Assembly (NCBI RefSeq): GCF_030540765.1
Contig: NZ_JAUOEL010000005.1
Coordinates: forward strand, 124,001 to 188,000
DNA from: Flavivirga jejuensis
GTDB lineage: Bacteria; Bacteroidota; Bacteroidia; Flavobacteriales; Flavobacteriaceae
Length of the DNA stretch: 64,000 nucleotides
Direction: 5' to 3'
The notes beneath the pieces are model-generated. The model was not told where the DNA came from. It saw nothing but the letters and a program-made list of their open reading frames with translations, and did no database searches. This document shows, piece after piece, positions 14,596-31,879 of the stretch (positions are counted from its first letter, which is position 1; every line of letters starts with the position of its first letter). Made by a program: the position numbers and the translations under genes.

Positions 14596-14998
14596 CTTCA
14601 ATTACGAAACTGATTTTTCTTTAGAGAGTGAAGAGGAAATTTCCAACTGGATTTTAAATACTGTTTCTGAAGAAACCTATAAAATAGAAGAAATAAATTA
14701 TGTGTTTTGTGATGATGAATACCTTCATAAATTGAATGTAGAATTTCTAAATCATGATACATTAACAGACATTATTAGCTTTGATTATTCTATTGGAAAA
14801 TTAATACAGGGAGATATTTTTATTTCTATTGAAAGAGTAAAAGATAATGCAAAGGATTTCTCTGTTTCTTTTAAAGAGGAATTGAATCGTGTTATCATTC
14901 ATGGTATACTTCATTACTGTGGCTATAAAGATAAAACAGATGAAGATGCCACAGTAATGCGAGAAAAAGAGAACCATTACTTGAAGCAATTAGATTAA
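14588..14998 (+). CDS. ybeY: Endoribonuclease YbeY (rRNA maturation factor)
   Basis: 136 residues. The metal-binding signature HGILHYCGYKD appears at about 103-113: two histidines, then KD where many bacteria have DH. The form with K-D is usual in Bacteroidota. Other conserved parts are LNVEFLNHDTLTDIISFDYS, and a final MREKENHYL helix. YbeY acts in 16S rRNA 3' processing and ribosome quality control. It overlaps the DUF4175 gene by 8 bases, so its translation is coupled to that gene. Confidence 0.92.
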   Translation: MINFNYETDFSLESEEEISNWILNTVSEETYKIEEINYVFCDDEYLHKLNVEFLNHDTLTDIISFDYSIGKLIQGDIFISIERVKDNAKDFSVSFKEELNRVIIHGILHYCGYKDKTDEDATVMREKENHYLKQLD

Positions 14999-15253: not shown

Positions 15254-15281
15254 GGTGTTTTACATAAACACCGTATATTTG
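15254..15281 (+). promoter_or_regulatory. mnmG promoter -7 box with adjoining inverted repeat
   Basis: TATATTTG at 15274-15281, followed by C, matches the TAnnTTTG box. Directly upstream is a perfect inverted repeat, GGTGTTT (15254-15260) and AAACACC (15266-15272), where a regulator could sit between -33 and -7. No TTG stands at the expected -33 distance. Confidence 0.5.
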
Positions 15282-15300: not shown

Positions 15301-15316
15301 TGTTCCACGTGGAACA
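15301..15316. promoter_or_regulatory. parS site (ParB binding), 5' of mnmG
   Basis: TGTTCCACGTGGAACA is a perfect 16-base palindrome. It matches the parS consensus TGTTNCACGTGNAACA, and the TTCC form is the one known from Pseudomonas. It lies between the mnmG promoter and start. Two more sites are at 17221 and 31864. Confidence 0.88.
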
Positions 15317-15340
15317 CTCACGTTTTTAAAACCATAAATT

Positions 15341-17212
15341 ATGTTTAATGAAGTATATGATGTTATAGTTGTTGGAGCAGGTCATGCAGGAAGTGAAGCT
15401 GCTGCTGCTGCTGCAAATATGGGTAGTAAGACTTTGCTTGTTACTATGAATCTTCAAAACATTGCGCAAATGTCTTGTAACCCCGCCATGGGAGGTATAG
15501 CAAAAGGACAAATTGTTAGAGAGATTGATGCGCTTGGTGGCTATAGCGGAATCGTTTCAGATACATCTGCTATACAATTTAAAATGCTTAACAAATCTAA
15601 AGGACCTGCTATGTGGAGTCCGAGAGTACAGAGTGATCGCATGCGTTTTGCAGAAGACTGGAGATTGCTTTTAGAGGGAACACCTAATCTTGATTTTTAT
15701 CAAGAAATGGTATCTGGTTTAATAGTAGAAAAAGGAAAAGTTACAGGTGTAAAAACATCTTTAGGATTAGAGATAAAAGCGAAATCTGTTGTTCTAACAA
15801 ACGGTACTTTTTTAAATGGACTTATACATATTGGAGATAAGAATTTTGGTGGTGGTAGAGCAGGGGAAAAAGCAGCTACTGGAATTACAGAACAGCTAGT
15901 AAATTTAGGTTTTGAATCTGGTAGAATGAAAACAGGAACACCTCCAAGAGTAGATGGTCGTAGTTTAGATTATTCAAAAATGGTAGAACAACCAGGCGAT
16001 GATAAACCAGAAAAATTTTCCTATTTAGATATAACCAAATCATTAGAAAATCAACGTTCTTGTCATATGACTTATACGAGTCTTGAGGTTCATGATTTAC
16101 TTCGAGAAGGCTTTGACAGGTCTCCTATGTTTAATGGTAGAATTAAAAGTTTGGGACCAAGGTATTGTCCTTCGATTGAAGATAAAATTAATCGATTTGC
16201 AGATAAGGACAGACACCAATTATTTATAGAACCAGAAGGTTGGAATACTTGTGAGGTTTATGTGAATGGGTTCTCTACATCCTTACCAGAGGATGTACAA
16301 TTTAAAGCATTACGATCTGTAGTTGGTTTTGAAAATGTAAAGTTTTTTAGACCTGGTTATGCTATAGAATATGATTATTTTCCACCTACACAATTAAAAC
16401 ATACTTTAGAAACTAAGCTTGTTGATGGTTTATATTTTGCAGGTCAGATTAACGGAACCACAGGTTACGAAGAAGCAGCTTCTCAAGGATTAATGGCAGG
16501 TATAAATGCCAGTTTAAAAGTAAACGAAAAAGATGCTTTTACACTTAGAAGAGACGAAGCTTATATAGGTGTTTTGATAGATGATTTAATTACGAAAGGT
16601 ACAGAAGAGCCCTATAGGATGTTTACATCTAGAGCAGAATACAGAACCTTATTACGCCAAGATAATGCAGATTTAAGATTAACACCTAAAGGATTTGAAC
16701 TTGGATTAGCCAGCGAAAAGCGATTAAAGAGAATGGAACAAAAACACAATGATGCCGAAAAGTTTGTAGAATTCTTTTCTAAAACAAGTGTAAAGCCAGA
16801 AGAAGCAAATCCAGTTTTAGAAGCTAAAGGATCTGCTTTAGTTAAACAATCTGATAAAATCTTTAAGATTTTTTCCAGGCCTAATATATCAATTGACGAT
16901 GTTCGAAAATTTGAAGCTGTAGAACAATATATTCAAGACAATAATTTAGATAATGAAGTTATTGAACAAACAGAAATTCAAGTTAAATATTCAGGATATA
17001 TAGCTAAAGAAAAAAACAATGCAGATAAATTAAGCAGGTTAGAATATGTAAAAATTCCAGAGAATTTTGACTACTCACAAATTAAATCTATGAGTTTTGA
17101 AGCACGAGAAAAATTAAAAAAAATACAACCAACTACCGTATCTCAAGCATCAAGAATTAGTGGTGTTTCACCTAATGATATTTCGGTATTATTAGTTTAT
17201 ATGGGTAGGTAA
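15341..17212 (+). CDS. mnmG: tRNA uridine-5-carboxymethylaminomethyl modification enzyme MnmG (GidA)
   Basis: 623 residues, the usual length. The N-terminal FAD-binding motif GAGHAG is at 12-17, the MnmG signature SCNPAMGGIAKG at 45-56, and the second signature GLYFAGQINGTTGYEEAASQG at about 363-383. The C-terminal helical domain (about 550-620) ends with a helix including ISVLLVYMGR. With MnmE it installs the (carboxymethyl)aminomethyl group at U34 of certain tRNAs. The gene is classically found near oriC, and here is bracketed by two parS palindromes. Confidence 0.97.
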   Translation: MFNEVYDVIVVGAGHAGSEAAAAAANMGSKTLLVTMNLQNIAQMSCNPAMGGIAKGQIVREIDALGGYSGIVSDTSAIQFKMLNKSKGPAMWSPRVQSDRMRFAEDWRLLLEGTPNLDFYQEMVSGLIVEKGKVTGVKTSLGLEIKAKSVVLTNGTFLNGLIHIGDKNFGGGRAGEKAATGITEQLVNLGFESGRMKTGTPPRVDGRSLDYSKMVEQPGDDKPEKFSYLDITKSLENQRSCHMTYTSLEVHDLLREGFDRSPMFNGRIKSLGPRYCPSIEDKINRFADKDRHQLFIEPEGWNTCEVYVNGFSTSLPEDVQFKALRSVVGFENVKFFRPGYAIEYDYFPPTQLKHTLETKLVDGLYFAGQINGTTGYEEAASQGLMAGINASLKVNEKDAFTLRRDEAYIGVLIDDLITKGTEEPYRMFTSRAEYRTLLRQDNADLRLTPKGFELGLASEKRLKRMEQKHNDAEKFVEFFSKTSVKPEEANPVLEAKGSALVKQSDKIFKIFSRPNISIDDVRKFEAVEQYIQDNNLDNEVIEQTEIQVKYSGYIAKEKNNADKLSRLEYVKIPENFDYSQIKSMSFEAREKLKKIQPTTVSQASRISGVSPNDISVLLVYMGR

Positions 17213-17220
17213 TTTTCAAA

Positions 17221-17236
17221 CGTTCCACGTGGAACA
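17221..17236. promoter_or_regulatory. parS site (ParB binding), 3' of mnmG
   Basis: CGTTCCACGTGGAACA: the core GTTCCACGTGGAAC is a perfect palindrome at 17222-17235, with one mismatch to parS at the first base. It lies 8 bases after the mnmG stop. Confidence 0.85.
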
Positions 17237-17290
17237 TTTTATACCAATTATAAAACGCATCATTCTAAACATAATTTATAATTTATTTAA

Positions 17291-18145
17291 ATGGAACAAA
17301 ATTCAAATAATTTAAATTTAAAAGATCACTCTGTTTCTGGTGAAAATTTTACATTAGTTCAGAATTTAGAATATGGTTTTTTAGAAACATCACCACAACC
17401 ATCTTTAGATAAATTACCAGATTATTACAAAAGTGAAGATTATATTTCGCATACAGATACACAAAGAAATCTCTTTGAAAAAGTATATCATATAATTCGA
17501 AGCATATCTTTAAAGAAAAAATTAAAATTAATTAATTCCTTTTCTTTTTCTACAAATAAAAAGCTTTTAGATATTGGTTGTGGTACTGGCGATTTTTTAC
17601 AAATTGCACAGCAAAACAATTGGAAAGTTTTCGGAATAGAACCAAATGAAAAAGCTAGAAAAATTACAAATAAAAAAACAAATAATGCTGCGTTCGAAAC
17701 TGAACAACTTTTTAAATTTGATGCTGAAAGTTTTGATGTAATTACACTTTGGCATGTGTTAGAACATTTACCAAATTTAGAAGAACATATTACAATTATT
17801 AAAAAATTACTAAAACCTAATGGTACAATAATAATTGCTGTTCCTAATTATAAATGTTACGATGCTAAATATTATAAATCATTCTGGGCTGCTTATGATG
17901 TACCGAGACATCTTTGGCATTTTAATAAAACATCCATTTCTAAATTAATATCTAAAGTTTCTATGAAAGTCATAAAAATAAAACCCATGCTTTATGATGC
18001 GTTTTATGTAAGCCTACTTTCTGAAAAATACAAGAATGGAAAAATGAATCCTATTAAAGGGTTTTGGATTGGATTTCTTTCAAATTTAAAAGCTATTAAG
18101 TCTAAAGAAGCATCTTCGCTAATTTATATCATTAAAAATAGTTAA
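17291..18145 (+). CDS. Class I SAM-dependent methyltransferase
   Basis: 284 residues. Motif I is LLDIGCGTGDFLQIA (about 94-108), the acidic post-motif is FGIEPN, and the later DVITLWHVLEHLPNLEEH and LKPNGTIIIAVPN are the usual Methyltransf_12/UbiE-like motifs. An N-terminal segment (about 15-60) with YGFLETSPQPS precedes the fold and could be a zinc-less relic of the CMAS/SAM-MT accessory region often seen in sugar-linked methyltransferases. The acceptor is unknown. The gene starts 54 bases after the second parS. Confidence 0.85.
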   Translation: MEQNSNNLNLKDHSVSGENFTLVQNLEYGFLETSPQPSLDKLPDYYKSEDYISHTDTQRNLFEKVYHIIRSISLKKKLKLINSFSFSTNKKLLDIGCGTGDFLQIAQQNNWKVFGIEPNEKARKITNKKTNNAAFETEQLFKFDAESFDVITLWHVLEHLPNLEEHITIIKKLLKPNGTIIIAVPNYKCYDAKYYKSFWAAYDVPRHLWHFNKTSISKLISKVSMKVIKIKPMLYDAFYVSLLSEKYKNGKMNPIKGFWIGFLSNLKAIKSKEASSLIYIIKNS

Positions 18146-18321
18146 AATTGATTTTCAGAAACTTCTTTTAATCTTTAGTATACCAAATATCCAAACACCA
18201 GTCATAATTTTTAAAGTTCCTTAAAACGCTTTAAATCGATCCATTTTTAATAGATATTAGCTATTTATACTAAACTAGTCTATAAAAATTAATTATAATT
18301 TAAATTCAAAGAAATTCTGCC

Positions 18322-18350
18322 TTGAATTTTAAGGTACTTTACTATTTTTG
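18322..18350 (+). promoter_or_regulatory. Promoter of the OmpH-like gene (TTG-N18-TATTTTTG)
   Basis: TTG at 18322-18324 and TATTTTTG at 18343-18350, 18 bases apart, 23 bases before the ATG. It has the same spacing and boxes as the dinD promoter, supporting both. Confidence 0.65.
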
Positions 18351-18373
18351 TTCAGATTTAAAATAATAATAAA

Positions 18374-18898
18374 ATGAATAAAATAGTTTATGTATTATTG
18401 GTAGCATTTGTTTTAACATCTTGCCAAAAAGAAAAAATTGGTTTTATAGACAATGGAATTGTTATAAATGATTTTCAAGAAAAAAAAGATCTAGAAACTA
18501 AATTTCAAGAAAAAGAAGAAGCTCTAAAAAAAAGAGCAGATAGTATTGGTAAGGCATTTCAAAATGAGTACTTATCTGTCCAAACTAAAGCACAAAATTT
18601 ATTTCAAAGAAATAAAAGAAAAGAAGCCGAACAATTAATGGCTCCTTTCCAACAAAAGGCACAACAATTAGAGCAACAAATACAAATAGAACAACAACAA
18701 TTTCAAAAAGATTTTCAAATAGAAATAGATTCTTTAATTGTTAAAGTAAAAGACTTTGTTAAAGATTACGGAAAGAAAAATGGTTACACTTATATTTTAG
18801 GTACAAGCGATGCAGCTGCAACTGTGTTATATGGTACTGATGAAAATGATTTAACAAAGACAATTCTTGATGCTTTAAACGAGACTTATAAAAAGTAG
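18374..18898 (+). CDS. OmpH/Skp-like periplasmic chaperone, lipoprotein form
   Basis: 174 residues. The N-terminus MNKIVYVLLVAFVLTSC has a lipobox (LTSC, Cys17). A long charged/glutamine-rich coiled coil follows (about 40-125), then the short Skp-type head segment (KKNGYTYILGTSDAAATVLYG). Skp/OmpH proteins hold outer-membrane proteins in the periplasm; a lipid-anchored form would act at a membrane. Function is by family only. It has its own promoter and terminator. Confidence 0.82.
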   Translation: MNKIVYVLLVAFVLTSCQKEKIGFIDNGIVINDFQEKKDLETKFQEKEEALKKRADSIGKAFQNEYLSVQTKAQNLFQRNKRKEAEQLMAPFQQKAQQLEQQIQIEQQQFQKDFQIEIDSLIVKVKDFVKDYGKKNGYTYILGTSDAAATVLYGTDENDLTKTILDALNETYKK

Positions 18899-18923
18899 AT
18901 AAATCAAAATTTATAAATTAATT

Positions 18924-18952
18924 AAATCCTAGTTAACGCTAGGATTTTTTTT
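18924..18952 (+). terminator. Intrinsic terminator of the OmpH-like gene
   Basis: AAATCCTAG (18924-18932), loop TTAACG, CTAGGATTT (18939-18947) followed by a T run. It starts 26 bases after the stop. Confidence 0.85.
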
Positions 18953-20249
18953 GTTTTATAAAACTCTTTTTTTATATGATTGTCAATTTATCTTGTAATT
19001 ACACAAACAAATATAAAAAGTAATATTTTTCTTACTAATAACTCAATCTCTAGTTTCTAAGTAACTTTTCCTCTATTTGTTTCAACTTCTACATAATAGA
19101 TTAATTTTTTGTAAATACTTATAGCATCAGACCTAATTATAAAGCTAATAATTGCAATAATACTTTTTTTAGAGGTAAGATTAACACCTAAACCTAATCG
19201 ATCATTAAATACGCCTTTAAATAAGTCTATTAGATCTTACCTATATTTTAAGATTGGAATCAACAAAAGCTATTAAAAGTATATTTTGTTTTGTAATTAT
19301 TTTTAAATCAAAAATTTATATTACTAAAACAAATAATGAATCAGAATAGATACTATATATCTATGTTTTTTAAAACAAATATATTCTTAGTTGATATTAA
19401 GATAAATTATAAATAAAGATTTACTAAACTGTTTCAATTTATATCATATCTAATGCCAAATGAAACAGTAAAATCATATTAAATTATTGATTATAAAACA
19501 TTTAAAGATTAATATTTAACTCTTCTTTTATTAGCATTAAAATTTTAAAACAGATAACTAATTGAGTTATCCACATTATATATTATAATACTATTTTATT
19601 TTTAAAATTTAAAAAAACAATAATGCATATTATAGTGTGTTAATAGCTAGGATAACTTTTTTTGATTTTTCTTTGATCATAATTAATTTACTTTCTATTA
19701 ATAATTAATTAACAATAGAATTTATCTTAATAGATTCATTTGTAGGTATTTTAATATTTATATGAACACTTGTTAACAACTAAAGTTAACTACTTTTTCT
19801 AATAACTATTTTATTTTTTGTGTTCACATCTATCATTTTTTAGTCTAATAACATTGCTAAAAAAAGTGAATTAAATTTTTGGTAAAGTCATCTTACTTTT
19901 TGATTGGAAAAATAAATGGATTAACAATATTTTTCTTTTAGAAAGTAATCAACACTTATTAACAAGTAATGAATATAATAACACACATTGTTAACTATTT
20001 TTGTTCCTTAAAATTATTGTCTTTTATTTGAAACCTTTTTCAAGTATATTTATAAAGCATTGATAATTAAGCTATTTTGTCTTTAATGTTAACTAATACT
20101 TTTTTTATAATTCTGTTTATTAATTAGTTAGAAACCAGCCTTTGTTCTTGATTTTAATAGCGAATAAGTCTTATACGTAACAAAGACATTAATGATTTTA
20201 AAAATTAAGTTAGTACCTTTATACTTTATTAAAACAAGATAATAAAATC
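18953..20249. other. Candidate chromosomal replication origin (oriC), gene-free
   Basis: About 1.3 kb with no open frame of note and very few G or C, bounded by a terminator and the rpiB gene. It contains a perfect DnaA box, TTATCCACA, at 19567-19575. Between about 19,700 and 20,000 there are several similar motifs: TTGTTAACA, TTATTAACA, ATTAACAAT and CATTGTTAAC. mnmG and rnpA, both oriC-associated genes in many bacteria, are near, as are three parS sites. Only one consensus DnaA box is present and dnaA is not in the window, so this is a candidate, not a proof. Confidence 0.5.
19567..19575 (+). promoter_or_regulatory. DnaA box TTATCCACA
   Basis: Exact match to the E. coli-type DnaA box, inside the gene-free AT-rich region. 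A single box could occur by chance in 64 kb of AT-rich DNA; its position gives it weight. Confidence 0.55.
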
Positions 20250-20684
20250 ATGACAATTTCTATAGGAAACGATCACGCAGGAACAGATTATAAATTTGCA
20301 ATTAAACACTATTTAGAAGATAAAGGGTATACTGTTAATAACTATGGAACCGATGCAAATGATAGTGTAGATTATCCAGATTTTGTACACCCAGTAGCCC
20401 AGGATATAAAAAATAAAAAAGTAGATTTTGGTATTTTAATATGCGGTAGTGCCAATGGTGTTGCTATGACAGCTAATAAATATCAAGAAGTACGTGCTGG
20501 TTTGTGTTGGACCAAAGAGATTGTAGAACTTATAAGGCAACATAATAATGCAAATATTTTATGTATTCCTGCACGCTATACTGCTATTCCTCAGGCCTTA
20601 CAAATGGTAGAAATATTTTTAAATACTAAATTTGAAGGGGGTAGACATCAAAATAGAATAGATAAGATTCCACTATCTTGTTAA
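20250..20684 (+). CDS. rpiB: Ribose-5-phosphate isomerase B
   Basis: 144 residues, full length. The conserved parts are IGNDHAGTDYK (about 5-15, with the D-H phosphate/ring-opening pair), VDYPDFVHPVA, and ILICGSANGVAMTANK (about 66-81, with the catalytic Cys). It interconverts ribose-5-phosphate and ribulose-5-phosphate in the pentose phosphate pathway. Its stop is immediately followed by the ATG of the CDF transporter gene, so the two are one transcript. It is the first gene after the candidate origin. Confidence 0.93.
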   Translation: MTISIGNDHAGTDYKFAIKHYLEDKGYTVNNYGTDANDSVDYPDFVHPVAQDIKNKKVDFGILICGSANGVAMTANKYQEVRAGLCWTKEIVELIRQHNNANILCIPARYTAIPQALQMVEIFLNTKFEGGRHQNRIDKIPLSC

Positions 20685-21602
20685 ATGGGGCATTCTCATA
20701 CTCATAACCATTCACATACTCATAACGACTTAAAAGGACGTAATCTTTTTATATCCATTTTATTAAATATTCTTATTACAGTTGCTCAAGTAATAGGAGG
20801 TATTGTTTCTGGTAGTTTAGCTTTATTAAGTGATGCATTACACAACTTTAGCGATGTTCTTTCCTTAGTTGTAAGTTATGTAGCTAATAAATTATCGAAA
20901 AAAAAAGCCTCAATTCACAGAACATTTGGGTATAAACGTGCAGAAATTTTAGCAGCTTTTATAAACGCTTCGACTTTAATAATTGTTGCTGTTTTATTAA
21001 TAATTGAAGCTATTAAAAGATTTCAAAACCCAGAAGAAATAGCATCTAATTTAGTTATTTGGTTATCTCTTTTAGGCATTGTAGCTAATGGCTTTAGTGT
21101 CCTTTTATTAAAAAAAGACTCCAAGGCTAATATGAATATGAAAAGTGCCTATTTGCATTTATTAACAGACATGATGGCAAGTATTGCAGTACTAATAGGA
21201 GGTCTGTTAATGAAATATTATCAATTGTATTGGGTAGATAGTGTATTAACTTTTGCTATAGCGCTTTATTTAATTTGGATGGGTTTCGATTTATTAAAAA
21301 GTTCCACAAAAGTTTTAATGTTATTTACTCCAGACGATATTCCTTTAAAACAAATTGTTGCTGAAATAAATGCTTTCGAATCTATTAAAAATGTACACCA
21401 TGTTCATGTATGGCAATTAAACGAAGAAGAAATTCATTTAGAAGCACATATTGATTTTAATAATGATATTACCTTATCTGAGTTTGATGTTATTTTACAC
21501 GAAATAGAAAACTTAGTGTTTAATAAATACGATATTAATCACGTAAATATTCAGCCAGAATTTGGAAAGGATGATGCTAAAGATTTGATTGTACAAGACT
21601 AA
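20685..21602 (+). CDS. Cation diffusion facilitator (Zn/Co/Cd efflux), CzcD-like
   Basis: 305 residues. It begins with a histidine-rich metal-binding leader (MGHSHTHNHSHTHND), then six membrane helices (about 20-205). The transport-site motifs are SDALHNFSDVLSL in helix 2 (about 49-61) and LLTDMMASIAVL in helix 5 (H-L-L-T-D-x-x-x-S). A cytosolic ferredoxin-like C-terminal domain (about 215-295) follows. It exports divalent metals, most often zinc, against protons. It directly abuts rpiB with no spacer; a metabolic reason for the pairing is not obvious. Confidence 0.92.
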   Translation: MGHSHTHNHSHTHNDLKGRNLFISILLNILITVAQVIGGIVSGSLALLSDALHNFSDVLSLVVSYVANKLSKKKASIHRTFGYKRAEILAAFINASTLIIVAVLLIIEAIKRFQNPEEIASNLVIWLSLLGIVANGFSVLLLKKDSKANMNMKSAYLHLLTDMMASIAVLIGGLLMKYYQLYWVDSVLTFAIALYLIWMGFDLLKSSTKVLMLFTPDDIPLKQIVAEINAFESIKNVHHVHVWQLNEEEIHLEAHIDFNNDITLSEFDVILHEIENLVFNKYDINHVNIQPEFGKDDAKDLIVQD

Positions 21603-21717
21603 TAAAAATCGTTATTCTTTCATTATAACTTATTGATTTCTTTTTATTTAATAGATAGTTCCTTTTTAATGAGTATTATAAGTTAACCATGAGAACATAT
21701 TTAAGTAAAATTTTAAA

Positions 21718-22164
21718 ATGACGCTAAAAATACAAGTAAAAACATTTGGGGCATTAACCAAGCAAGAATTGTATAGTCTGTTACAATTAAGAAGTGACGT
21801 ATTTGTAGTTGAGCAAGATTGCGTGTATCAGGATATTGATGGAAAAGACCAAAAAGGGTTGCATGTTTTAGGTTTTAAAGAAGATAGATTAGTGGCTTAT
21901 ACCCGTATTTTCAAACCAGGAGATTATTTTAAAGAGTCTAGTATAGGTAGAGTGGTGGTTGCTAAAAAAGAACGTGCTTATAAGTATGGTTATGATATTA
22001 TGAAAGCCTCAATAAAAGCTATTACAGATAATTATAATACCTCGTTAATAAAAATATCGGCACAAGTATATTTAAAAAAATTCTATATTAATTTGGGTTT
22101 TACAGCTGTTGGTGTGGAATATTTAGAAGATGATATTCCACATATTGCTATGATTAAAAAGTAA
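21718..22164 (+). CDS. ElaA-type GNAT acetyltransferase
   Basis: 148 residues, complete ElaA family length. Signature at the N-terminus: LYSLLQLRSDVFVVEQDCVYQDIDGKDQKGLH, then AYTRIFKPGDYF, IGRVVVAKKERAYKYGYDIMKAS (the acetyl-CoA pyrophosphate loop, here RAYKYG) and YLKKFYINLGFTAVG. The acceptor is unknown. It is monocistronic, separated from the CDF gene by 115 bases and converging on the next gene across repeat R2. Confidence 0.88.
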   Translation: MTLKIQVKTFGALTKQELYSLLQLRSDVFVVEQDCVYQDIDGKDQKGLHVLGFKEDRLVAYTRIFKPGDYFKESSIGRVVVAKKERAYKYGYDIMKASIKAITDNYNTSLIKISAQVYLKKFYINLGFTAVGVEYLEDDIPHIAMIKK

Positions 22165-22165
22165 A

Positions 22166-22337
22166 TTCCTATGGATTGAAAGTCTATAGAGTCGTTTTGG
22201 GAAACTGAAAATCTGCTTTGTGAAATACCAAAATAAAAGGTAAAAATTGTAAAATTTAATTAGTATGAATTCGTGTCAATTTTTTTAGAAGCTAAATGTA
22301 ATAAAGCTTAGATTTAACTATAGTTGAGACCAATAAA
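22166..22337 (-). repeat. Dispersed repeat family R2, copy 2
   Basis: Same block order as 8321-8484: CTATGGATTGAAAGTCTATAG hairpin, then CTGAAAATCTGCTTTGTGAAAT, GAATTCGTGTCA, TTTTTTTAGAAG, and TTTAACTATAGTTGAGACCA ending in ATAAA. The hairpin has decayed compared with the first copy. It abuts the stop of the minus-strand T9SS gene. Confidence 0.75.
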
Positions 22338-23753
22338 CTAGTGTTTTAAAGCAAAATGACCTCTAATAATTTCATTAGAGTTTAAAGTAATTACATACCA
22401 ATAATCATCACTATTTAAAACTTTTCCATTAAAAATGCCGTTCCAACCTGGAGAATTTGGAGGTAATGTTTTTAAAAGTTTACCGTGCTTATTAAAAATA
22501 TGTATCATTTTTATGGAATTATTACTATCAAAAACTTGCCATAAATCGTGGCTACCATCGTTGTTTGGTGTAAAGTATTTTGGGATATAATAATCTTCAT
22601 CAATAATTAATACGCTAAAGCTAGATTCGTTGCTATCGCAAGTAGTTTCATTATAAATATAAATGGTTTGAGAAGTTGTAATAGCCTCTCCTGCATTAAA
22701 CGAGATGCCATTACCTCCAGGTTGATTAAAGTAATTTCCGTTTATTAAACTAGGCAAAATGTAAGACGTATTCGTTATAACATTATCAAGAGTATCTACA
22801 TTAACAAAATTGCTGCAATCGTTTTGAGAAGTAATGTAATTTGAAAAAGAAACAGGCTCCCAAATTAAATGATTTCCTGAAGGATTATCAACAACAACAC
22901 AGTTTAAATCAGGATTAACCCTAAAATCTATTGCAGTAATATTAGCATTATTACCGTTTCTAAGATTCAATCTGCATAGATTGTTATTACTACAATCCAG
23001 TTGGGTAAGGTTAGAATTATTGGAAAGATTTAATTCTGCTAATTCATTAAATGCACAATTTAAAGTTATTAATTGATTATTTATAGAAAGGTCTAAATTG
23101 GTTAGTTGATTGTTTTCAGAAGAAAAGAAAGTTAGACTCGGATTATTAGAAAGATCAAGACTGCTTATTAGATTATTACCACATTGAAATGTACTTAATG
23201 TATTATTTTGGGATGTATCTAAGGAAGCTATTTGGTTGTGTTCAGATACTAAAACATTTAAGCGAGTATTCTGCGTAACATCTAAATTAGATAGCATATT
23301 ATTTTCACACCTTAATGAAATCAATAATGTGTTTAGAGTAACATCAAGACTGGTTAATTGATTAGAATCACACCATAAAATTTGTAAATCTCTATTTTGA
23401 GTAACATCTAAATTGGTTAATTGGTTATTACCGCAAAATAAATGAATTAAGCGTGTATTTTGTGTAACGTTGAGATTTGTTAGATTATTTGATTCACAAT
23501 TAAGGATTTCTAAAGCCGTAAAGGCTTCAATACCGGTAAGATCTAATATACCTTCATTTTCTATAAATAACTCCGTAAGACCGCTTATATTTGCCGTTAG
23601 GACTAAATTATCTAAAGGTCCTGTATCGTAACCTAAAGTTATTAAAGCTTGTTCAAAATTATCGTCTGGAACAAATGTGGTACTTTGAGACGTACCAATA
23701 GAACTTAGTAATACTAATACTAAAAAGCATAAGTATTTTTTAATCACCCACAT
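22338..23753 (-). CDS. Secreted leucine-rich-repeat protein with T9SS type B sorting domain
   Basis: 471 residues. Signal peptide (MWVIKKYLCFLVLVLLSSIGTSQ), then about ten 21-residue leucine-rich repeats (about 55-275) of the type LDVTQNTRLxxLxCxxNQLTN. A linker follows, then the C-terminal gliding-motility type domain (about 385-471: IPKYFTPNNDGSHDLWQV, FNKHGKLL, GWNGIFNGKVLNSDDYWYVI, GHFALKH). This C-terminal region directs export by the type IX system and surface attachment. Its first 14 bases overlap the end of the OmpA gene. A ligand or adhesion role is likely but not shown. Confidence 0.88.
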   Translation of the reverse strand: MWVIKKYLCFLVLVLLSSIGTSQSTTFVPDDNFEQALITLGYDTGPLDNLVLTANISGLTELFIENEGILDLTGIEAFTALEILNCESNNLTNLNVTQNTRLIHLFCGNNQLTNLDVTQNRDLQILWCDSNQLTSLDVTLNTLLISLRCENNMLSNLDVTQNTRLNVLVSEHNQIASLDTSQNNTLSTFQCGNNLISSLDLSNNPSLTFFSSENNQLTNLDLSINNQLITLNCAFNELAELNLSNNSNLTQLDCSNNNLCRLNLRNGNNANITAIDFRVNPDLNCVVVDNPSGNHLIWEPVSFSNYITSQNDCSNFVNVDTLDNVITNTSYILPSLINGNYFNQPGGNGISFNAGEAITTSQTIYIYNETTCDSNESSFSVLIIDEDYYIPKYFTPNNDGSHDLWQVFDSNNSIKMIHIFNKHGKLLKTLPPNSPGWNGIFNGKVLNSDDYWYVITLNSNEIIRGHFALKH

Positions 23754-24594: not shown

Positions 24595-24660
24595 AGGTAA
24601 GATAATAGAACAGGTATAAATATACTGTTTTAATTTTTTTTATATAGAAATAAGTAAATC

Positions 24661-26295
24661 TTACTTTAAATAATCAAAGTAAGTTGAGGGTTTACTAAGT
24701 ATTTCTGTTGCTTTTTTAATTTTAGAATCGTTTACTTTATAATATTCATACAACCCCTCTCTGTAAACATATCTTTTTACGATGTCTTCTGTTAATAATT
24801 CTAATAAATAATCTTTATTCTCGTCTATAACACCAGTTTTAGAGACTCTTAAATTAGATACCAAAGTCTTAAAGTCTTTTTCAATATTATCATTCAATTC
24901 TTCTTTAGTTGCTGTTTCAAAAGCTTTGTATAGAGCCTTTTCTGTATCTGTTTCAAAAGAAAAGTTATTCGTTTTTAAATAATTTTTAAAATTTGAAAAG
25001 TCAGCATCCGAAAGCTTTAAACTATTAATATCGTTTGGAGTATTTTTATAATAATACTCTGTGGCATAATTAAATATTAAGTCGCTGTTTACTATGGCAT
25101 TTGTGATTGCCGAATTTTTAGAAGCGTTAAAAATAACATCTGGAAATACGCCGCCACCATCAAATACCTTACGACCGTTTTTGGTTTTAAACTCGTTATA
25201 ATTTTCTTGTTTTACACGAACCGCTTCTCCTTTTTTATTCCTGTTCCAATAATCTAAAGATTGAATGCATCTGCCAGAAGGGGTATAATATCTTGAAATA
25301 GTTATTTTAACCTGTGTACCGTAAGTAAGTAGCTTAGGGCGCTGTACCAAACCTTTACCAAAGCTTCTGGCGCCTACAATAACAGCGCGATCTAAATCTT
25401 GTAACGAACCCGATACAATTTCGCTTGCCGAAGCACTACTTCCATCAATTAAAACTACTAATGGTATTTTGGTATCAATAGGTTCACTTTGTGTATAGTA
25501 CGTTTTATTATATTTTTTAACTTTAGATTTTGTGGTGACTACCAATTGGCCTTTAGGCACAAAAAGGTTCACAATTTTAATAGCCTCATTAAGCAGTCCT
25601 CCTGGGTTTCCTCTTAAATCCAGAATAATATGTTCTGCTCCTTGAGCTTTTAAATCACGTAAAGCATAATTGGTCTCTGCATGTGCTTTATTATTAAATC
25701 TGCTTAAAACAATATAACCTGTTTTATCGTTAACCATCGAAAAATGTGGTACAGCCTTAATTTCAACTTCAGCTCTTTTTATAGTGGCAGTTTGAGTTTT
25801 ACCTTGGCGTATATAAGTAACTTCTACAGATGTGTCTGAAGTGCCTTTTAATAAGCTGCCAGCATCTTCTTTATAAGTATCTATGCTAATGTCACCAACT
25901 TTAATAATTTCGTCTCCAGCTTTTAAACCCGCTTTATCTGCTGGATAGTCTTTATAAGGCTCTACAATAACCAATTTATCTTTAAATGTTTTTACTCTGG
26001 CACCTATGCCCGTATAATCGCCAGTATTATTAATTCTAGCAGCTTCAACATCCTGTTCGTTCATAAAATTGGTGTATGGATCTAAACCTGCTAGCATACT
26101 TTTAATAGCAGTATCCATTAAATCACCTGGGTTTGTTTCATCAACATAATTCATGTTGAGCTCTTTAAAAAGCGTTGTAAATATTTCTATTTGCTTCGCT
26201 ATTTCGAAAAAATCATTTTTAAAAGAAGTTCCAGCAAAAAAAAGGAGACTTGCCAGTATAGGAATTATGATTTTCTTTTTTAATAAGTATTTCAT
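24661..26295 (-). CDS. S41 family C-terminal processing peptidase
   Basis: 544 residues. N-terminal signal anchor (MKYLLKKKIIIPILASLLFFAGTSF), a PDZ domain (about 85-165, GLKAGDEIIKVGDIS), and the tail-specific protease core with catalytic serine in GSSASASEIVSGSLQ (about 290) and lysine in GARSFGKGLVQ (about 313). A C-terminal helical extension (about 400-544) is present. CtpA/Prc-type enzymes trim or degrade periplasmic proteins. The gene follows rnpA by 18 bases, an arrangement common in flavobacteria. Confidence 0.92.
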   Translation of the reverse strand: MKYLLKKKIIIPILASLLFFAGTSFKNDFFEIAKQIEIFTTLFKELNMNYVDETNPGDLMDTAIKSMLAGLDPYTNFMNEQDVEAARINNTGDYTGIGARVKTFKDKLVIVEPYKDYPADKAGLKAGDEIIKVGDISIDTYKEDAGSLLKGTSDTSVEVTYIRQGKTQTATIKRAEVEIKAVPHFSMVNDKTGYIVLSRFNNKAHAETNYALRDLKAQGAEHIILDLRGNPGGLLNEAIKIVNLFVPKGQLVVTTKSKVKKYNKTYYTQSEPIDTKIPLVVLIDGSSASASEIVSGSLQDLDRAVIVGARSFGKGLVQRPKLLTYGTQVKITISRYYTPSGRCIQSLDYWNRNKKGEAVRVKQENYNEFKTKNGRKVFDGGGVFPDVIFNASKNSAITNAIVNSDLIFNYATEYYYKNTPNDINSLKLSDADFSNFKNYLKTNNFSFETDTEKALYKAFETATKEELNDNIEKDFKTLVSNLRVSKTGVIDENKDYLLELLTEDIVKRYVYREGLYEYYKVNDSKIKKATEILSKPSTYFDYLK

Positions 26296-26313
26296 AGTTA
26301 AAGTATCTTTTTA

Positions 26314-26685
26314 TTATGAAACTTTGCTGGAAAATTTTTCAAACAAAGGTTTCATTTTAGATTCTATTTGGGTTAAGGTTGGTTTGTCTTTGCCAATGTA
26401 CAAAATCATAAACGCATATTGTGTTGTAATGTTGTTAAAATACACAGCTTTGTTTAGTCTATAAACCTCTCTTAATAATCGTTTTATGCGGTTTCTATCT
26501 ACAGCTGTTTTAAAATTTCGTTTACTTACAGATACGCCTGTTTTAGCGATAACATCATCATCAAAAGTTGTTTGAAGGTAGACTAACCGTAAGGGAAAAG
26601 CCGAAACAGATTGTCCTCGTTCAAACAATTGTTCGATAAGCTTTTTGCTTTTAAGTTTTTCTTTCTTAGGATATGATGTAGACAT
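26314..26685 (-). CDS. rnpA: Ribonuclease P protein component
   Basis: 123 residues from the methionine at 26685 (MSTSYPKKEKLKSKKLIEQLFERGQ). A longer in-frame start at 26727 would add a hydrophobic 14-residue leader, which does not suit this cytosolic protein, so the inner start is preferred. The RNR-type motif is KTAVDRNRIKRLLREVYRL. It assists the RNase P RNA in maturing tRNA 5' ends. rnpA usually lies beside rpmH and dnaA near oriC; here it precedes the S41 peptidase. Confidence 0.93.
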   Translation of the reverse strand: MSTSYPKKEKLKSKKLIEQLFERGQSVSAFPLRLVYLQTTFDDDVIAKTGVSVSKRNFKTAVDRNRIKRLLREVYRLNKAVYFNNITTQYAFMILYIGKDKPTLTQIESKMKPLFEKFSSKVS

Positions 26686-26822
26686 ATGTAAATATATGAA
26701 TGCAAAAATAGCAATAACAATTAACACCTCAATTGCAATATATCTGCATGATAAAAATCATATTTAAACTCATTGAATCGTAGTAACTTAATAGTTTAAA
26801 AATAATTAAAGTATTCTATAGA

Positions 26823-28679
26823 ATGGGTGACTTAAATATTATAAAGCTAAAGACTAAAAAGGATAGGGCTAATTACATTCATCATTTATTAAATGATATT
26901 AAGGCTCTTGATCTAATGATTGAAAAAGGTTTGATAGAAGAAGATGTTCATAGAATAGGTGCAGAACAAGAATTTTGTTTGGTAAACAATCAATTTTTAC
27001 CAGAGAGTAAGTCGTTAGAGCTTTTAAAAGATATTGATGACGACCATTTTACAACAGAGATTAGCAACTATAATCTTGAGATAAATTTAGATCCTGTAAT
27101 ACTTGGAGGCACTTGTTTTTCACGGTTGCATAAGCAGTTGAAAACACTATTGGAAAAGGGGAAGAAAGTAGCGTCTAAGAAAGATATTAAAATAATATTG
27201 ACAGGCATTTTACCATCATTATCTATTAACAATGCTAATGAGGAGAATATGACCAATGTTGAACGGTATTCTGTATTAAATGATGAAATAAAAAGAATAA
27301 GAAAACAAAATTTCGATATCCATATTAAAGGTGCAGATGAATTAAATTTATGGCATGATTCTGTGATGTTAGAAGGCTGCAATACCAGTTTTCAGATGCA
27401 TTTACAATTAAGTCCGAAAACGTTCGTAGATAGTTATAATTGGGCACAAGCTATTTCTGGACCTATTTTAAGTATATGTGCTAACTCGCCATTGCTATTT
27501 GGTAAAGAACTTTGGAGAGAGACCCGAATAGCCCTATTTACACAAAGTATTGATACCAGAGCTAATTCCTATCTATTAAACGATAAATTGTCGCGAGTTA
27601 GTTTTGGGAACAAATGGCAAACAGGATCTGCGATCGATATTTTTAAAGATAATATTTCCAGGTTTAGAAGCTTTATTACTACTGGTTTTATTAAGGATAG
27701 TGTTGATATGTTAAATAACAACGAAATTCCAAAACTAAGAGCTTTAGGGCTCCATAACGGCACTGTATATCCTTGGAATCGCGTTTGTTATGGTACAATA
27801 GATGGCAAACCAAATTTAAGAATTGAAAACAGATATATCCCTTCGGGTCCAACTCCTGTTGATGAAATTGCAAACATGGCATTTTGGGTGGGTGTTATGC
27901 TAGGCAAACCCAAAAAGTATAAAAATATACATAAACAATGGGATTTTAAAGATGTAAAAACAAACTTTTTTAATGCCGCCCGATATGGGATAGCAACCCA
28001 ATTTTATTGGAATGGTACGTATATTTCCAGTTACGATTTAATCTTAAATGAGCTTTTACCTATGGCATATAAAGGCTTATATAGTGCTGGGGTATCACCA
28101 AAAGATGCAGAATATTATTTAAAAATTATTAAAGATAGAGTGCAGGGTAATAGTGGTTCAGAGTGGCTTGTTAGAAACTTTAGGCAATTATTAAAAACGC
28201 ATAAACGTTTTGAGGCCATGCAAATATTAACCTCTAAAATGTATGAAAAGCAAGAAAAAGGATATCCAGTTTCTACTTGGGGAATCTTACACGATAGCAA
28301 TGATTTTCCATTTAAAGAACAAAGAGTTGTAAAGCATATTATGAGTTCCGACATTTTTTCTGTCGATAAAAAAGATAGTATTGAATTGGTCTTAAATATC
28401 ATGAAATGGAAGAACATTCACCATGTGCCAATTATAAATAATGGTAGGGAATTGCTAGGTTTAATAAGTTGGACAGACGTTAAATCGTTTTTAGAAACCC
28501 CTAAACAACAACATGATTCGGTTGGTAAAATAATGAGAACAGCTATTATAACTACAGATGAGTACACACCTATTCATGTCGCAAAAAAACTAATGAACGA
28601 TAACAATATAGGGAGTCTTCCAGTGGTAAAACAAAATAAATTAGTAGGCTTGATCACTAGAAATGATTTTAATACATGA
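26823..28679 (+). CDS. Carboxylate-amine ligase (GCS2-like) fused to a CBS pair
   Basis: 618 residues. The first ~480 residues form a glutamate-cysteine-ligase-like fold: HRIGAEQEFCLVNNQ (metal/glutamate-binding strand, about 45-58), TEISNYNLEINLDP, CNTSFQMHLQLSP, ANSPLLFGKELWRETR, RIENRYIPSGPTPVDE. The last ~130 residues are two CBS motifs (IMSSDIFSVDKKDSIELVL...HHVPIINNGRELLGLISWTDV and IMRTAIITTDEYTPIHVA...GSLPVVKQNKLVGLITRNDF). CBS pairs commonly sense adenine nucleotides, so activity may follow cell energy state. The true substrate is not known. It overlaps the next gene by ATGA. Confidence 0.82.
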   Translation: MGDLNIIKLKTKKDRANYIHHLLNDIKALDLMIEKGLIEEDVHRIGAEQEFCLVNNQFLPESKSLELLKDIDDDHFTTEISNYNLEINLDPVILGGTCFSRLHKQLKTLLEKGKKVASKKDIKIILTGILPSLSINNANEENMTNVERYSVLNDEIKRIRKQNFDIHIKGADELNLWHDSVMLEGCNTSFQMHLQLSPKTFVDSYNWAQAISGPILSICANSPLLFGKELWRETRIALFTQSIDTRANSYLLNDKLSRVSFGNKWQTGSAIDIFKDNISRFRSFITTGFIKDSVDMLNNNEIPKLRALGLHNGTVYPWNRVCYGTIDGKPNLRIENRYIPSGPTPVDEIANMAFWVGVMLGKPKKYKNIHKQWDFKDVKTNFFNAARYGIATQFYWNGTYISSYDLILNELLPMAYKGLYSAGVSPKDAEYYLKIIKDRVQGNSGSEWLVRNFRQLLKTHKRFEAMQILTSKMYEKQEKGYPVSTWGILHDSNDFPFKEQRVVKHIMSSDIFSVDKKDSIELVLNIMKWKNIHHVPIINNGRELLGLISWTDVKSFLETPKQQHDSVGKIMRTAIITTDEYTPIHVAKKLMNDNNIGSLPVVKQNKLVGLITRNDFNT

Positions 28680-29872
28680 TCGATGTATATAGTAAAGCAC
28701 GAGATAACAGCATAACTGTAAAAAGAATACTTGGTAAGATAGAAGGATCAAAACCAGGATCGACGATGGTATTTTTTGGCGGTATTCATGGTAATGAGAC
28801 CTCTGGAATTTATGCTTTAAAAGAGGTTTTAGAGGGTATTGACGCTTTAAAGGTAAAAGGTGTTATTTATGGAATTTCGGGCAATTTAAAAGCACTTAAA
28901 TTAAACCAACGATATGTTGATGAGGATTTAAACCGACTTTGGACTAAAGAACGTATTGAAGCTATTAAGAAAAAAGTGGTTTTAAATGATGATGAATCAG
29001 AATTGCTGGAGCTATTAACTATTTTAAACACTATTTTAGAGACCGAAAAACCACCATTTTATTTTATAGACCTACATACCACATCAAGTAAAACTTTACC
29101 TTTTATAACGATTAATGACGCGTTAATAAACCGAAAATTTTCTAAACAGTTTCCCGTTCCCATTGTGTTGGGCATAGAAGAGTATTTAAATGGTCCCTTG
29201 TTAAGTTATATAAACGAATTAGGTTATGTGTCTTTAGGTTTTGAATCTGGGCAGCATGACGATCTAAGTGCTATCACGAATAATAGGGCATTTATTTATT
29301 TGGCTTTAGTGTTTTCGGGTATTTTGAAAGCAGCAGCTGTTACCAATTTCTTAGATCATTATAAACAATTACAGACACAGGCTGCTAATATTATTGATAT
29401 TTTTGAAGTTATTTATCTTCATAAGATACAATCTCACGAAACTTTTACCATGATAAATGGGTTTAAAAGTTTTCAAGCCATAGATAAAGGGATCCCAATA
29501 GCTATAAGCAATAGTAGAGAATTAAAAGCAAAATATAATGGACGTATTTTTATGCCGTTGTATCAAACTAAAGGGGCCGAAGGCTTTTTTATTATAAGAC
29601 GTATCAACCCTTTTTACTTAAAATTATCAACCTTTTTAAGGCGCACAAAATTTGATAGTTTATTAGTAACATTACCTGGTGTTTCCTGGTTAAATAAAGA
29701 TGAAGGTGTTTTACAGGTTAATTTAAAGGTTTCCAGGTTTTTTGTTAAGTCGTTTTTTCATTTGTTGGGTTATAGAAATAAACAAATTACAAGGACTCAT
29801 TTAAGGCTCAACAACCGTGAACGTGTAGCTAAAACAGGGATCTATAAAAAAGAAAGATGGTTTAAGAAGTAA
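28676..29872 (+). CDS. Succinylglutamate desuccinylase/aspartoacylase-family amidohydrolase
   Basis: 398 residues. Zinc-binding motif GGIHGNETSG (HxxE, about 36-45), further DEDLNRLW, then the third ligand in FIDLHTTSS (about 129-137) and the LGFESGQHDD stretch near 190, matching the M14-like AstE/AspA fold. It likely removes an acyl or peptide-like group from an amino acid. It starts inside the last codon of the GCS2-CBS gene (overlap ATGA), so the ligase and this hydrolase form one unit acting on related amide bonds. That link is inference. The C-terminal basic tail (RVAKTGIYKKERWFKK) is unusual. Confidence 0.82.
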   Translation: MIDVYSKARDNSITVKRILGKIEGSKPGSTMVFFGGIHGNETSGIYALKEVLEGIDALKVKGVIYGISGNLKALKLNQRYVDEDLNRLWTKERIEAIKKKVVLNDDESELLELLTILNTILETEKPPFYFIDLHTTSSKTLPFITINDALINRKFSKQFPVPIVLGIEEYLNGPLLSYINELGYVSLGFESGQHDDLSAITNNRAFIYLALVFSGILKAAAVTNFLDHYKQLQTQAANIIDIFEVIYLHKIQSHETFTMINGFKSFQAIDKGIPIAISNSRELKAKYNGRIFMPLYQTKGAEGFFIIRRINPFYLKLSTFLRRTKFDSLLVTLPGVSWLNKDEGVLQVNLKVSRFFVKSFFHLLGYRNKQITRTHLRLNNRERVAKTGIYKKERWFKK

Positions 29873-30007
29873 AGGGGGATTTATAATTCAAAAAAGAAAA
29901 AATTTAAGTAGTCTATTATTTTTTAGTGCCTTAGGTATAGCCAATAATGATTTTATTACTCAGGGCAACGCATTAAATTTTTTTCTATTATTTAAAAGTC
30001 CTTGTTC

Positions 30008-30099
30008 TGTCATTCTGATGAAGTATGAGGAAGAATCTCTTAAATACATTGATCATTATTCAAAAATATGAGATGCTTCACTACGTTCTGCATGACAAT
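30008..30099. repeat. REP-like inverted repeat
   Basis: TGTCATTCTGATGAAG... (from 30008) and ...CGTTCTGCATGACA (to about 30097) form imperfect inverted arms with AAGAATCTC and GAGATGCTTC inside. This type of hairpin (CATTCTGA/GAATCTC) is common in intergenic DNA of Bacteroidota. The flanking 392-base gap (29873-30264) holds this and the terminator below. Confidence 0.6.
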
Positions 30100-30197
30100 T
30101 CAATCCTAGTTATTTGATAAACAGTTATTCAAAATGTATACGGAATTTTTTATGCGTTTGCCCTATTCTATTACTCTTTTGAATAGAATAAACGTAT

Positions 30198-30228
30198 AAA
30201 AAAAGCGCAAGTTTTAATAACTTGCGCT
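30198..30228 (-). terminator. Terminator of the redoxin operon
   Basis: On the minus strand: AGCGCAAGTT, loop, AACTTGCGCT, then a run of T (plus-strand A run at 30198-30203). The stem is 30204-30213 with 30219-30228. It lies 36 bases after the stop of the redoxin gene. Confidence 0.8.
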
Positions 30229-30264
30229 AAGATGGCTGTTTTTGTATTCTAAAACTAAGTAGAA

Positions 30265-31014
30265 TTAAGCTTTAATTGGACATCCAATAGCTTTTGTTAA
30301 ACTTGGATTCGGTTTTTCTCCTTTTTCTATGGCTTCTATGGCATTTTCAAGGTATTTTACCTTTACATTTTCGGCAGATCTTGCATTGTCATCAATGGTA
30401 CCAATGTATTGAACTTTACGTTCTTTATCTAATAAAAATACATGTGGCGTTCTAACAGCTCCGTATTTTGGATATAATTTTTGACCTTCGTCAACTAAAT
30501 AAGCAAATGGAAATCCTTTTTCTTTGGCTCTTTTTTGCATGGCTTCATACCCTTCTTTTTCATTTTTAGGGTTATTAGGATTAATAGCAATTACTGGATA
30601 TCCTTTTGTAGCATACTTATTATGTAGTTCGATTAAACGGTCTTCATACATTTTTGCAAAAGGACATTCGTTACAAGTAAACGTTACAATGTATCCTTTT
30701 GCATTGTTTATACCTGCTAATGAAACCATAGAACCATCCACATTTTTAAGATTGAAATCGGTAGCAACGTCTCCGATTTTATAGCCTCCAATTTCTTCTA
30801 ATGTTTTTGTTTGCTCTGGACCATGGCCACCAGGAGGTCCTTTTCTTTCTCCATTATGTGGTGGTCCCTTGCGGTCTCCAGGAGGAGGTCCTTTTCTTTC
30901 TGGGTTATTGTTTTCTGCAGAAATATCTGTGTTTTGTTTTGCTTTATTATTACAAGAAACAAGGACACTGGATACTAGACCAACTACGGCAATGCATAAA
31001 ATTAATTTTTTCAT
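30265..31014 (-). CDS. Thioredoxin-fold (redoxin/AhpC-TSA) lipoprotein with a basic-proline linker
   Basis: 249 residues. Lipobox VLVSC with Cys21. A low-complexity linker (about 39-70) repeats RKGPP/GERKGPP units. The thioredoxin-like domain (about 75-245) includes GDVATDFNLKNVDGS, TFTCNECPFAKMYEDRLIEL with a CxxC (CNEC) pair, and RTPHVFLLDKERKVQYIG. This resembles peroxiredoxin/thiol-disulfide proteins. It sits 13 bases after the TlpA-like gene. The linker could bind a negatively charged partner or the cell wall; that is inference. A second cysteine pair is absent. Confidence 0.82.
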   Translation of the reverse strand: MKKLILCIAVVGLVSSVLVSCNNKAKQNTDISAENNNPERKGPPPGDRKGPPHNGERKGPPGGHGPEQTKTLEEIGGYKIGDVATDFNLKNVDGSMVSLAGINNAKGYIVTFTCNECPFAKMYEDRLIELHNKYATKGYPVIAINPNNPKNEKEGYEAMQKRAKEKGFPFAYLVDEGQKLYPKYGAVRTPHVFLLDKERKVQYIGTIDDNARSAENVKVKYLENAIEAIEKGEKPNPSLTKAIGCPIKA

Positions 31015-31027
31015 AAATAGATTATTT

Positions 31028-31582
31028 TTAGAGTTTTAAGGTTTCTGTTATGGTGTTTTCTAAATCTTCTAAACTAGAGAAAGTATGTTCAAAAAAGCCT
31101 CGTTTTTTATTATTAAAAATGATAGTGAAAGGAATAGCGCCAGACCAATTCGGGTCTATTTTATCTATCCAACTATTAGAATCTGGATCATCTAATAAAA
31201 TGACTTTAGAAGTAATATTTTTTTGCTTTAAAAAAGGTTTGAGTTTTGTTTCAATATCTTCTGGAAAATCAAGACTTACGAGTATTATTTCTACATTTGG
31301 ATTTTTGTTAGCATATTGTTGAATATATGGTAATTCTTTAACACATGGAGCACACCACATGGCCCAGAAATTAATAACGTATGTCTTATTGGTTTTAGTA
31401 TAAAGAAGAGGTTCTAGCTCATTAAAATTGTAAATAGGAATATCATTGCTAATTTTAGAAACACTTTTATTTGTTATCAACACTTCTTTTTTTTCGTTTT
31501 TACAACTTAAACAAAAAGAAATTATTAAAATAAGATATAAAAGACGTCTTTTTTGTTGTTTAAAAAATATAATTACTAGCAA
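31028..31582 (-). CDS. TlpA-like thiol:disulfide lipoprotein
   Basis: 184 residues. N-terminal hydrophobic segment and lipobox FCLSC (Cys27). The thioredoxin domain has WAMWCAPCVKELP, with the WCxPC active site at about 75-79 and the later cis-Pro region GAIPFTIIF. TlpA/ResA-type proteins reduce disulfides in the periplasm, often for cytochrome c maturation or resistance to oxidative stress. It is the first gene of a two-gene operon with the redoxin lipoprotein. Confidence 0.85.
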   Translation of the reverse strand: MLVIIFFKQQKRRLLYLILIISFCLSCKNEKKEVLITNKSVSKISNDIPIYNFNELEPLLYTKTNKTYVINFWAMWCAPCVKELPYIQQYANKNPNVEIILVSLDFPEDIETKLKPFLKQKNITSKVILLDDPDSNSWIDKIDPNWSGAIPFTIIFNNKKRGFFEHTFSSLEDLENTITETLKL

Positions 31583-31863
31583 AGTTAAAAAGTGTTTTAA
31601 TGTGTTAGACCTATTAAGTTATTAAAGGTTTAATTTAATCTAAAAATTATCCGACTTGTGTCGGGATTTCCAATTATATCACTCTTTTGCTGTTCTGGGT
31701 GAGGTAAAATAACAAAATTTGATTTTTGCCTTTAAAGGCAGAATGAAACCTACGAAACGCCTCTTTAGTTTGTATAATAATACGCTTTTTTGTAGTATAA
31801 ATCTTAATGGTATTATCGTTTACAAATGATAAACATCACAACTACAACAGAATAAAAACAAAG
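31583..31863. other. Intergenic region with no recognisable gene
   Basis: AT-rich leader side of the TlpA operon. It contains TTTTGCTGTTCTGGGTGAGGTAAAATAAC (about 31687-31715), a string similar to the reverse complement of about 15150-15170. No open frame of note. The remaining gap to 32081 holds the parS site, an LRR-gene fragment and repeat R3. Confidence 0.5.
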
Positions 31864-31879
31864 TGTTTCACGTGAAACA
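31864..31879. promoter_or_regulatory. parS site (ParB binding), third copy
   Basis: TGTTTCACGTGAAACA is an exact match to the classical parS palindrome. It lies intergenically between the TlpA and LRR genes, about 12 kb from the candidate oriC. Confidence 0.9.

Follow-up and report, generated by a model that had tools for sequence, protein, structure and literature searches.

A probable two-site centromere flanking mnmG, with one additional parS site, beside a candidate replication origin of Flavivirga jejuensis

Results

The parS sites of the window

The subject of the present study is a stretch of 64,000 nucleotides from the flavobacterium Flavivirga jejuensis (contig NZ_JAUOEL010000005.1, positions 124,001 to 188,000; hereafter the window), which carries three palindromes of the parS type, the sites on which ParB proteins load in ParABS chromosome segregation systems. 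Two of them enclose mnmG (gidA), a tRNA-modification gene that stands after ybeY and is followed by a methyltransferase gene, an ompH-like gene, a long AT-rich gap and rpiB, and the third lies farther to the right. The initial annotation, made from the letters of the window, had already recognized three parS palindromes here, two of them bracketing mnmG, and both statements proved accurate (Table 1). In our view, the stretch is very likely the centromere of the chromosome, a parS locus belonging to a ParABS system, and probably lies near the replication origin.

The consensus is a 16-bp palindrome, TGTTNCACGTGNAACA, from which only site 2 departs, by one outer base; save for that outermost base, all three sites are perfect inverted repeats. 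Site 1 is separated from the mnmG ATG by 24 nt, and the mnmG stop codon from site 2 by 8 nt. A first-order Markov model trained on 400 kb of this contig predicts 0.012 exact matches to TGTTNCACGTGNAACA in the genome of 6,017,851 bases and 0.00013 in the window. When one mismatch was allowed, five places were found in the whole genome (approximately 1.3 expected), namely the three window sites and imperfect ones on contigs C8 and C12. The genome scan for clustering that the initial annotation had suggested therefore came out in its favour, since three of these five places, including both exact sites of the genome, fall within the same 17 kb. At up to three mismatches the window holds 5 matches versus 2.5 expected, so that loose matching cannot tell sites from chance.

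Table 1. Coordinates of the parS sites, genes and putative control elements in the window
Feature	Position	Strand	Remarks
ybeY, upstream neighbour	14588..14998	+	Pfam YbeY; TIGR00043 above cut-off
Putative mnmG -7 promoter element	15274..15281	+	TATATTTG (TAnnTTTG motif); starts 27 bp before the start of parS site 1
parS site 1	15301..15316	.	TGTTCCACGTGGAACA, 0 mismatches; 5' of mnmG
mnmG (gidA), between sites 1 and 2	15341..17212	+	Pfam GIDA, E 1.1e-161; MnmG C-terminal domains
parS site 2	17221..17236	.	CGTTCCACGTGGAACA, 1 mismatch (first base); just past the mnmG stop
S-adenosylmethionine-dependent methyltransferase gene adjoining site 2	17291..18145	+	Pfam Methyltransf_23
ompH-like gene, conserved neighbourhood	18374..18898	+	Pfam OmpH
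Gap without annotated open reading frame (ORF)	18899..20249	.	1.35 kb, 19% G+C
Candidate oriC core, 420-bp block	19566..19985	+	Opens with DnaA box TTATCCACA; ~2.3 kb from site 2
rpiB, after candidate oriC	20250..20684	+	Pfam LacAB_rpiB
parS site 3	31864..31879	.	TGTTTCACGTGAAACA, 0 mismatches

Apart from the features listed, window positions 10241-11080 encode a Bro-N domain protein, approximately 4 kb to the left of ybeY.

Conservation of the pair at mnmG

Three sets of mnmG loci were compared. The order-level set comprised 60 loci (52 relatives, 7 genomes from a phylum draw and the window itself), the 52 being taken from 58 order-level relatives with an mnmG match, with G026, G027, G032, G044, G052 and G059 left out. 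The named set (Flavobacterium, Aquimarina, Tenacibaculum and others) consisted of the 75 of 80 loci that contained the full mnmG, and the wider-phylum set of 39 of the 130 same-class or same-phylum genomes with mnmG.

At least one site was present in 55 of 60 genomes (our own included), and exactly two sites in 42 of the 59 relatives. The congeners are uniform, all 11 possessing exactly two sites, one 18-25 nt before mnmG and the other 8-18 nt after it. At the order level, 46 of 60 loci have mnmG flanked on each side by a site no more than 300 bp away; of the remainder, one has an upstream site and a downstream site at 300-600 bp, three have an upstream site only, five a downstream site only, and five none. 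The named loci behave in a similar manner, with 53 of 75 having sites within 300 bp on both sides, 16 having the downstream site at 300-600 bp and 6 having an upstream site only. In six of the seven loci with such a distant downstream site that were inspected, it stands directly after the stop codon of a further gene, which we tentatively take to be apt.

When the 135 order-level and named loci are considered together, 125 have a site in the 300 bp before the mnmG start and 104 have one no farther than 300 bp from its stop; the nearest site is no more than 30 bp away in 83 loci at the start (upstream) and in 64 at the stop (downstream). Two loci, L117 and L118, are apparent duplicates of G005 and G002; they are included in these placement counts and in the C..A counts given below, and were left out of the TTATCCACA count, the DnaA-box shuffles and the ybeY-overlap count. 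Across the wider phylum, a site was found within 600 bp of mnmG in 32 of 39 loci, on one side only in 29 of these, and 140 of the 148 genomes of the phylum draw carry a site somewhere.

The mnmG-flanking pair is ancient and is pinned to both ends of mnmG in most of the Flavobacteriales loci examined. Its conservation has exceptions that count against the centromere reading: of the five order-level loci with no site near mnmG, four belong to genomes that are site-less altogether, and 7 of the 39 wider-phylum loci have no site within 600 bp of the gene. The portions of the literature covered here describe no parS at mnmG in Bacteroidota; an earlier description is possible, as Livny 2007, which is said to be the main survey of parS sites, lay outside that scope.

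As a separate observation, in a genome of the same class (G122, contig C61, locus L252) two parS-like sites lie on a contig other than that of mnmG, one of them inside an ORF that resembles threonine synthase (named by eye).

An additional site in one genome

The initial annotation had read the three sites together as a sign of the origin domain. All three are indeed parS-like and share the same 17 kb, but they are not equivalent, as an old pair at mnmG is accompanied by a third site found in one genome. Site 3 is absent from all 11 congeners, which have only the two mnmG sites, and in the five congener loci that match its surroundings the best match has 4 mismatches. It is a recent extra site, seen in the F. 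jejuensis genome alone. Its lack in every congener, together with its location past the end of the best congener alignment and beside a dispersed repeat, would also fit a chance palindrome or the site of another protein, in which case the mnmG pair alone would form the centromere. An exact consensus match such as site 3 is expected 0.00003 times per 15 kb, which argues against that explanation, and we consider it unlikely.

The surroundings of site 3 show several marks of their own. The dispersed repeat just to its left (approximately 125 bp, window 31634-31757) carries at least 31 of 34 own-genome matches, at no fewer than about 23 places, with 25 of 243 candidates scored. To the right, positions 31926-32029 and 33600-33701 are 88% alike and flank a leucine-rich repeat (LRR) gene at 32082-33413, which suggests local duplication. 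A DnaA box at 31901, next to site 3, was discounted, similar words having been noticed by eye at 33160 in the neighbouring LRR gene. Approximately 3 kb to the right of site 3 there is a group II intron (34626-36254; Rfam group-II-D1D4-3), which includes an ORF for a reverse transcriptase/maturase at 35007-36254.

Placement relative to mnmG and ybeY

Two upstream layouts recur among the loci: either mnmG is preceded by a separate gap containing a TAnnTTTG motif, as in the window, or parS lies over the last codons of ybeY. The motif, which we take to be the Bacteroidetes -7 promoter element, occurs within 150 bp of the mnmG ATG in 18 of 35 genus representatives (3.3 expected); in 11 of these a parS site follows, its start 27-35 bp past that of the motif (spacing determined by hand). 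Among distinct flanks, the motif stands at 27-30 bp in 22 of 226 upstream versus 0 of 121 downstream, many of the 22 being congeners. If it is a promoter, parS lies within the mnmG leader. Furthermore, where the gap is at least 40 bp long and holds a single site (one locus per genus, 18 of 36 genera), the site is biased towards the mnmG start, with a mean fractional position of 0.29 (p ~0.001); the genera are not phylogenetically independent, and p values are therefore indicative only. The second layout, with parS over the ybeY end, accounts for 67 of 129 loci, and in 66 of these the site is read in the same frame, so that YbeY ends in MFHVEQ, LFHVEQ, MFHVKH or a similar tail; the DNA site appears to dictate the C-terminus of the YbeY protein in many loci.

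Such regular placement invites the thought that the palindromes are mainly operators, through which ParB or another factor would control mnmG from its 5' leader, and not segregation sites. The -7-like element at 27-35 bp before the start of parS in 11 of the 35 genus representatives is what one would expect under this explanation, as is the bias towards the mnmG start in the 18 genera when these are treated as independent. On the other hand, 17 of the 35 representatives have no TAnnTTTG within 150 bp, many of them having the site in the end of ybeY instead, and one relative (G033) has parted the sites from the gene entirely. Its sites are located at 997-999 kb beside methyltransferase and ompH genes (locus L097), with mnmG at 1,277 kb and ybeY at 2,546 kb, that is, 0.28 Mb and approximately 1.07 Mb from the sites by the shorter way round. 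Since the sites of G033 stand apart from mnmG, a centromere can persist without that gene, and regulation of mnmG is consequently unlikely as the main purpose; we judge the operator explanation to be rather improbable.

The near-perfect inverted repeats, and the TTTTAT that follows site 2, might likewise suggest that the palindromes act in RNA, as hairpins or intrinsic terminators bounding mnmG. This was rejected, because 83 of 428 sites (46 of the 151 downstream, 37 of the 277 upstream) have C..A at positions 5 and 12, two bases that cannot pair in RNA, and RNA structure as the function of the palindromes seems to us scarcely credible. Additionally, the asymmetric sites tend to face opposite ways on the two sides of mnmG, the T..G and C..A forms numbering 63 versus 37 upstream and 12 versus 46 downstream, as counted over the order-level, named and phylum loci, which are not independent.

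ParB, ParA and condensins

A profile search of the F. jejuensis genome gave one HTH_ParB match, on contig C33. The protein is a canonical ParB: it has ParB_N and HTH_ParB domains, scores above the TIGR00180 cut-off but below that of the Noc model, and is similar to ParB and Spo0J chains of solved structure. In Caulobacter numbering, with positions counted by eye, it carries R173, Y179, K184 and G201, of which, according to an excerpt of PMC7383237, R173 and G201 are parS-type residues, with variety tolerated at 179 and 184. The ORF before parB (in locus L026) encodes a ParA-type ATPase, with Pfam AAA_31 and CbiA above cut-off and no NCBIfam model above cut-off. The distance from parB to the parS locus amounts to 0.80-1.47 Mb in 14 of 15 single-contig relatives and to 0.17 Mb in the remaining one (G047; by hand). 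A second, weaker ParB match was seen in G031.

Profile searches for condensins matched an SMC hinge in 0 of 21 genomes and ScpB in 0 of 21 (ScpA was not searched), and the controls were positive in 10 (SMC hinge) and 11 (ScpB) of 14 named genomes. Caulobacter has an SMC, and the hinge control was negative there, so that a divergent SMC hinge may have escaped detection. For MukB, our own genome gave no match, and 2 of the 21 were above cut-off. As neither an SMC hinge nor ScpB was matched, the usual condensin-loading role is doubtful here. In the sections of PMC10197239 available to us, two gut Bacteroidetes are reported to be without a known condensin, and Bacteroides are said to rely on unidentified SMC complexes for arm alignment.

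Location of the replication origin

The initial annotation had assigned the sites to the origin domain of the chromosome, a claim that finds support in two congeners and in a DnaA-box block within the locus, and not in the skew of the F. jejuensis contig. In one congener (G001), GC skew is negative in seven of seven samples from -1.53 to -0.13 Mb of the pair and positive in nine of nine from +0.11 to +2.24 Mb; the two samples closest to the pair run counter to this, with +0.088 at -0.02 Mb and -0.019 at +0.04 Mb. In another (G004), four of five samples on the left are negative and five of five on the right positive, and the change of sign falls between sampling points -51 and +49 kb from the pair.

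The block lies in the gap between ompH and rpiB, which overlaps the lowest-GC 1.3-kb stretch of 400 kb of the contig. It is present in all 11 congeners, and has stops in all six frames; sequence identity is 86.7-90.3% for ten of them and, over 250 bases, 73% for the eleventh. Ten of the 12 genomes have TTATCCACA at its opening and two have TTATTCACA; the flanking sequence is unalignable (the block alignment was made from the ten loci with the exact box, the window included). A related AT-rich stretch precedes rpiB in Tenacibaculum skagerrakense (L193), approximately 7 kb after mnmG, and TTATCCACA also occurs shortly before rpiB in G040 and G053. In view of these features, the AT-rich block before rpiB is more likely than not to be oriC.

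Several observations pull the other way, and they bear both on the origin domain and on the block. The skew of the F. jejuensis contig flips at 65.7 kb, 74 kb to the left of site 1; in G175 it is negative in six of eight 8-kb samples, on both sides of the pair; and the samples of G033 are without pattern. The window block holds 4 DnaA-box-like words per 400 bp, just above the highest count among shuffles (3), and no clear excess of TTATCCACA emerges over the mnmG loci, where it occurs 44 times; 30 permuted 9-mers averaged 27, with a highest count of 68. Replication might thus start elsewhere, for instance at 65.7 kb of the contig, with the block being an RNA gene, a regulatory leader or similar, an explanation that the skew flip and the single exact TTATCCACA per congener in the block would suit. 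Speaking against it are the sign change of G004 close to the pair and the nature of the block, which is very AT-rich, stopped in six frames and headed by TTATCCACA or TTATTCACA, with no Rfam match in the gap up to E 1. The skew switch itself has at most two near-consensus boxes per 600 bp; the surrounding 63.7-67.3 kb contain two ORFs and a gap of approximately 640 bases with no box cluster by eye, and DnaA-box density scans of the contig gave no strong cluster. A start elsewhere is accordingly a real possibility, and we hold it to be the less probable one.

Box clusters were also encountered near mnmG in other relatives. In a genome of a different family (G048, locus L102), TTATCCACA-like boxes approximately 5.5 kb upstream of mnmG reach 6 per 400 bp versus a shuffle maximum of 3, and this cluster is another candidate origin near a parS pair. 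The densest DnaA-box-like cluster scanned lies approximately 9.7 kb upstream of mnmG in G014 (locus L083), with 8 per 400 bp versus a shuffle maximum of 4.

Discussion

The locus is most likely an old, gene-hugging two-site centromere with one recent extra site, beside a candidate origin. In operation, ParB, encoded elsewhere beside ParA, would load on the mnmG-flanking sites and on site 3, slide as a clamp and cluster over the neighbouring kilobases, and ParA would then move the ParB-parS complex once the nearby origin had been copied, with the conserved AT-rich block between ompH and rpiB as the leading candidate for the start of replication. Clamp sliding and the ParABS mechanism are taken here from an excerpt of PMC7333895 and from general knowledge; binding of ParB to the window sites, and segregation through them, are predicted from sequence.

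The ParABS systems of Bacillus subtilis, Caulobacter and Pseudomonas aeruginosa offer close parallels, having in common with the present one the 16-bp palindrome, the parS-type residues of ParB, a ParA-type gene before parB and few sites confined to one region. The system described here differs from them in that two ancestral sites are fixed at the ends of mnmG, parB lies far from parS in 14 of 15 single-contig relatives, and no SMC hinge or ScpB match was obtained in the 21 genomes. In other phyla, gidA, gidB, parA and parB form an origin neighbourhood; gidA (mnmG) is close to parS and the origin in both arrangements, whereas here mnmG keeps parS and parAB is far away. Within the phylum, Bacteroides caecimuris likewise has its parS clustered at the origin assigned by the authors, who also found among 12 gut bacteria that the origin is not always at dnaA (PMC10197239, in part); mnmG and ybeY do not figure in the sections consulted.

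One further scenario deserves mention, doubtful as we consider it at present: the centromere of the Flavobacteriales may be condensin-independent and built into the ybeY-mnmG transcription unit, with ParB loading near the origin coupled to transcription. If this were true, parS in the mnmG leader, shortly after the promoter, or in the FHV-containing tail of ybeY, would tie ParB loading to a tRNA-modification gene. More broadly, the parS pair offers a means of locating the origin region by sequence in a phylum whose origin has been little mapped, and a two-site centromere without a match to Smc-ScpAB would make a natural test bed for ParB acting by itself.

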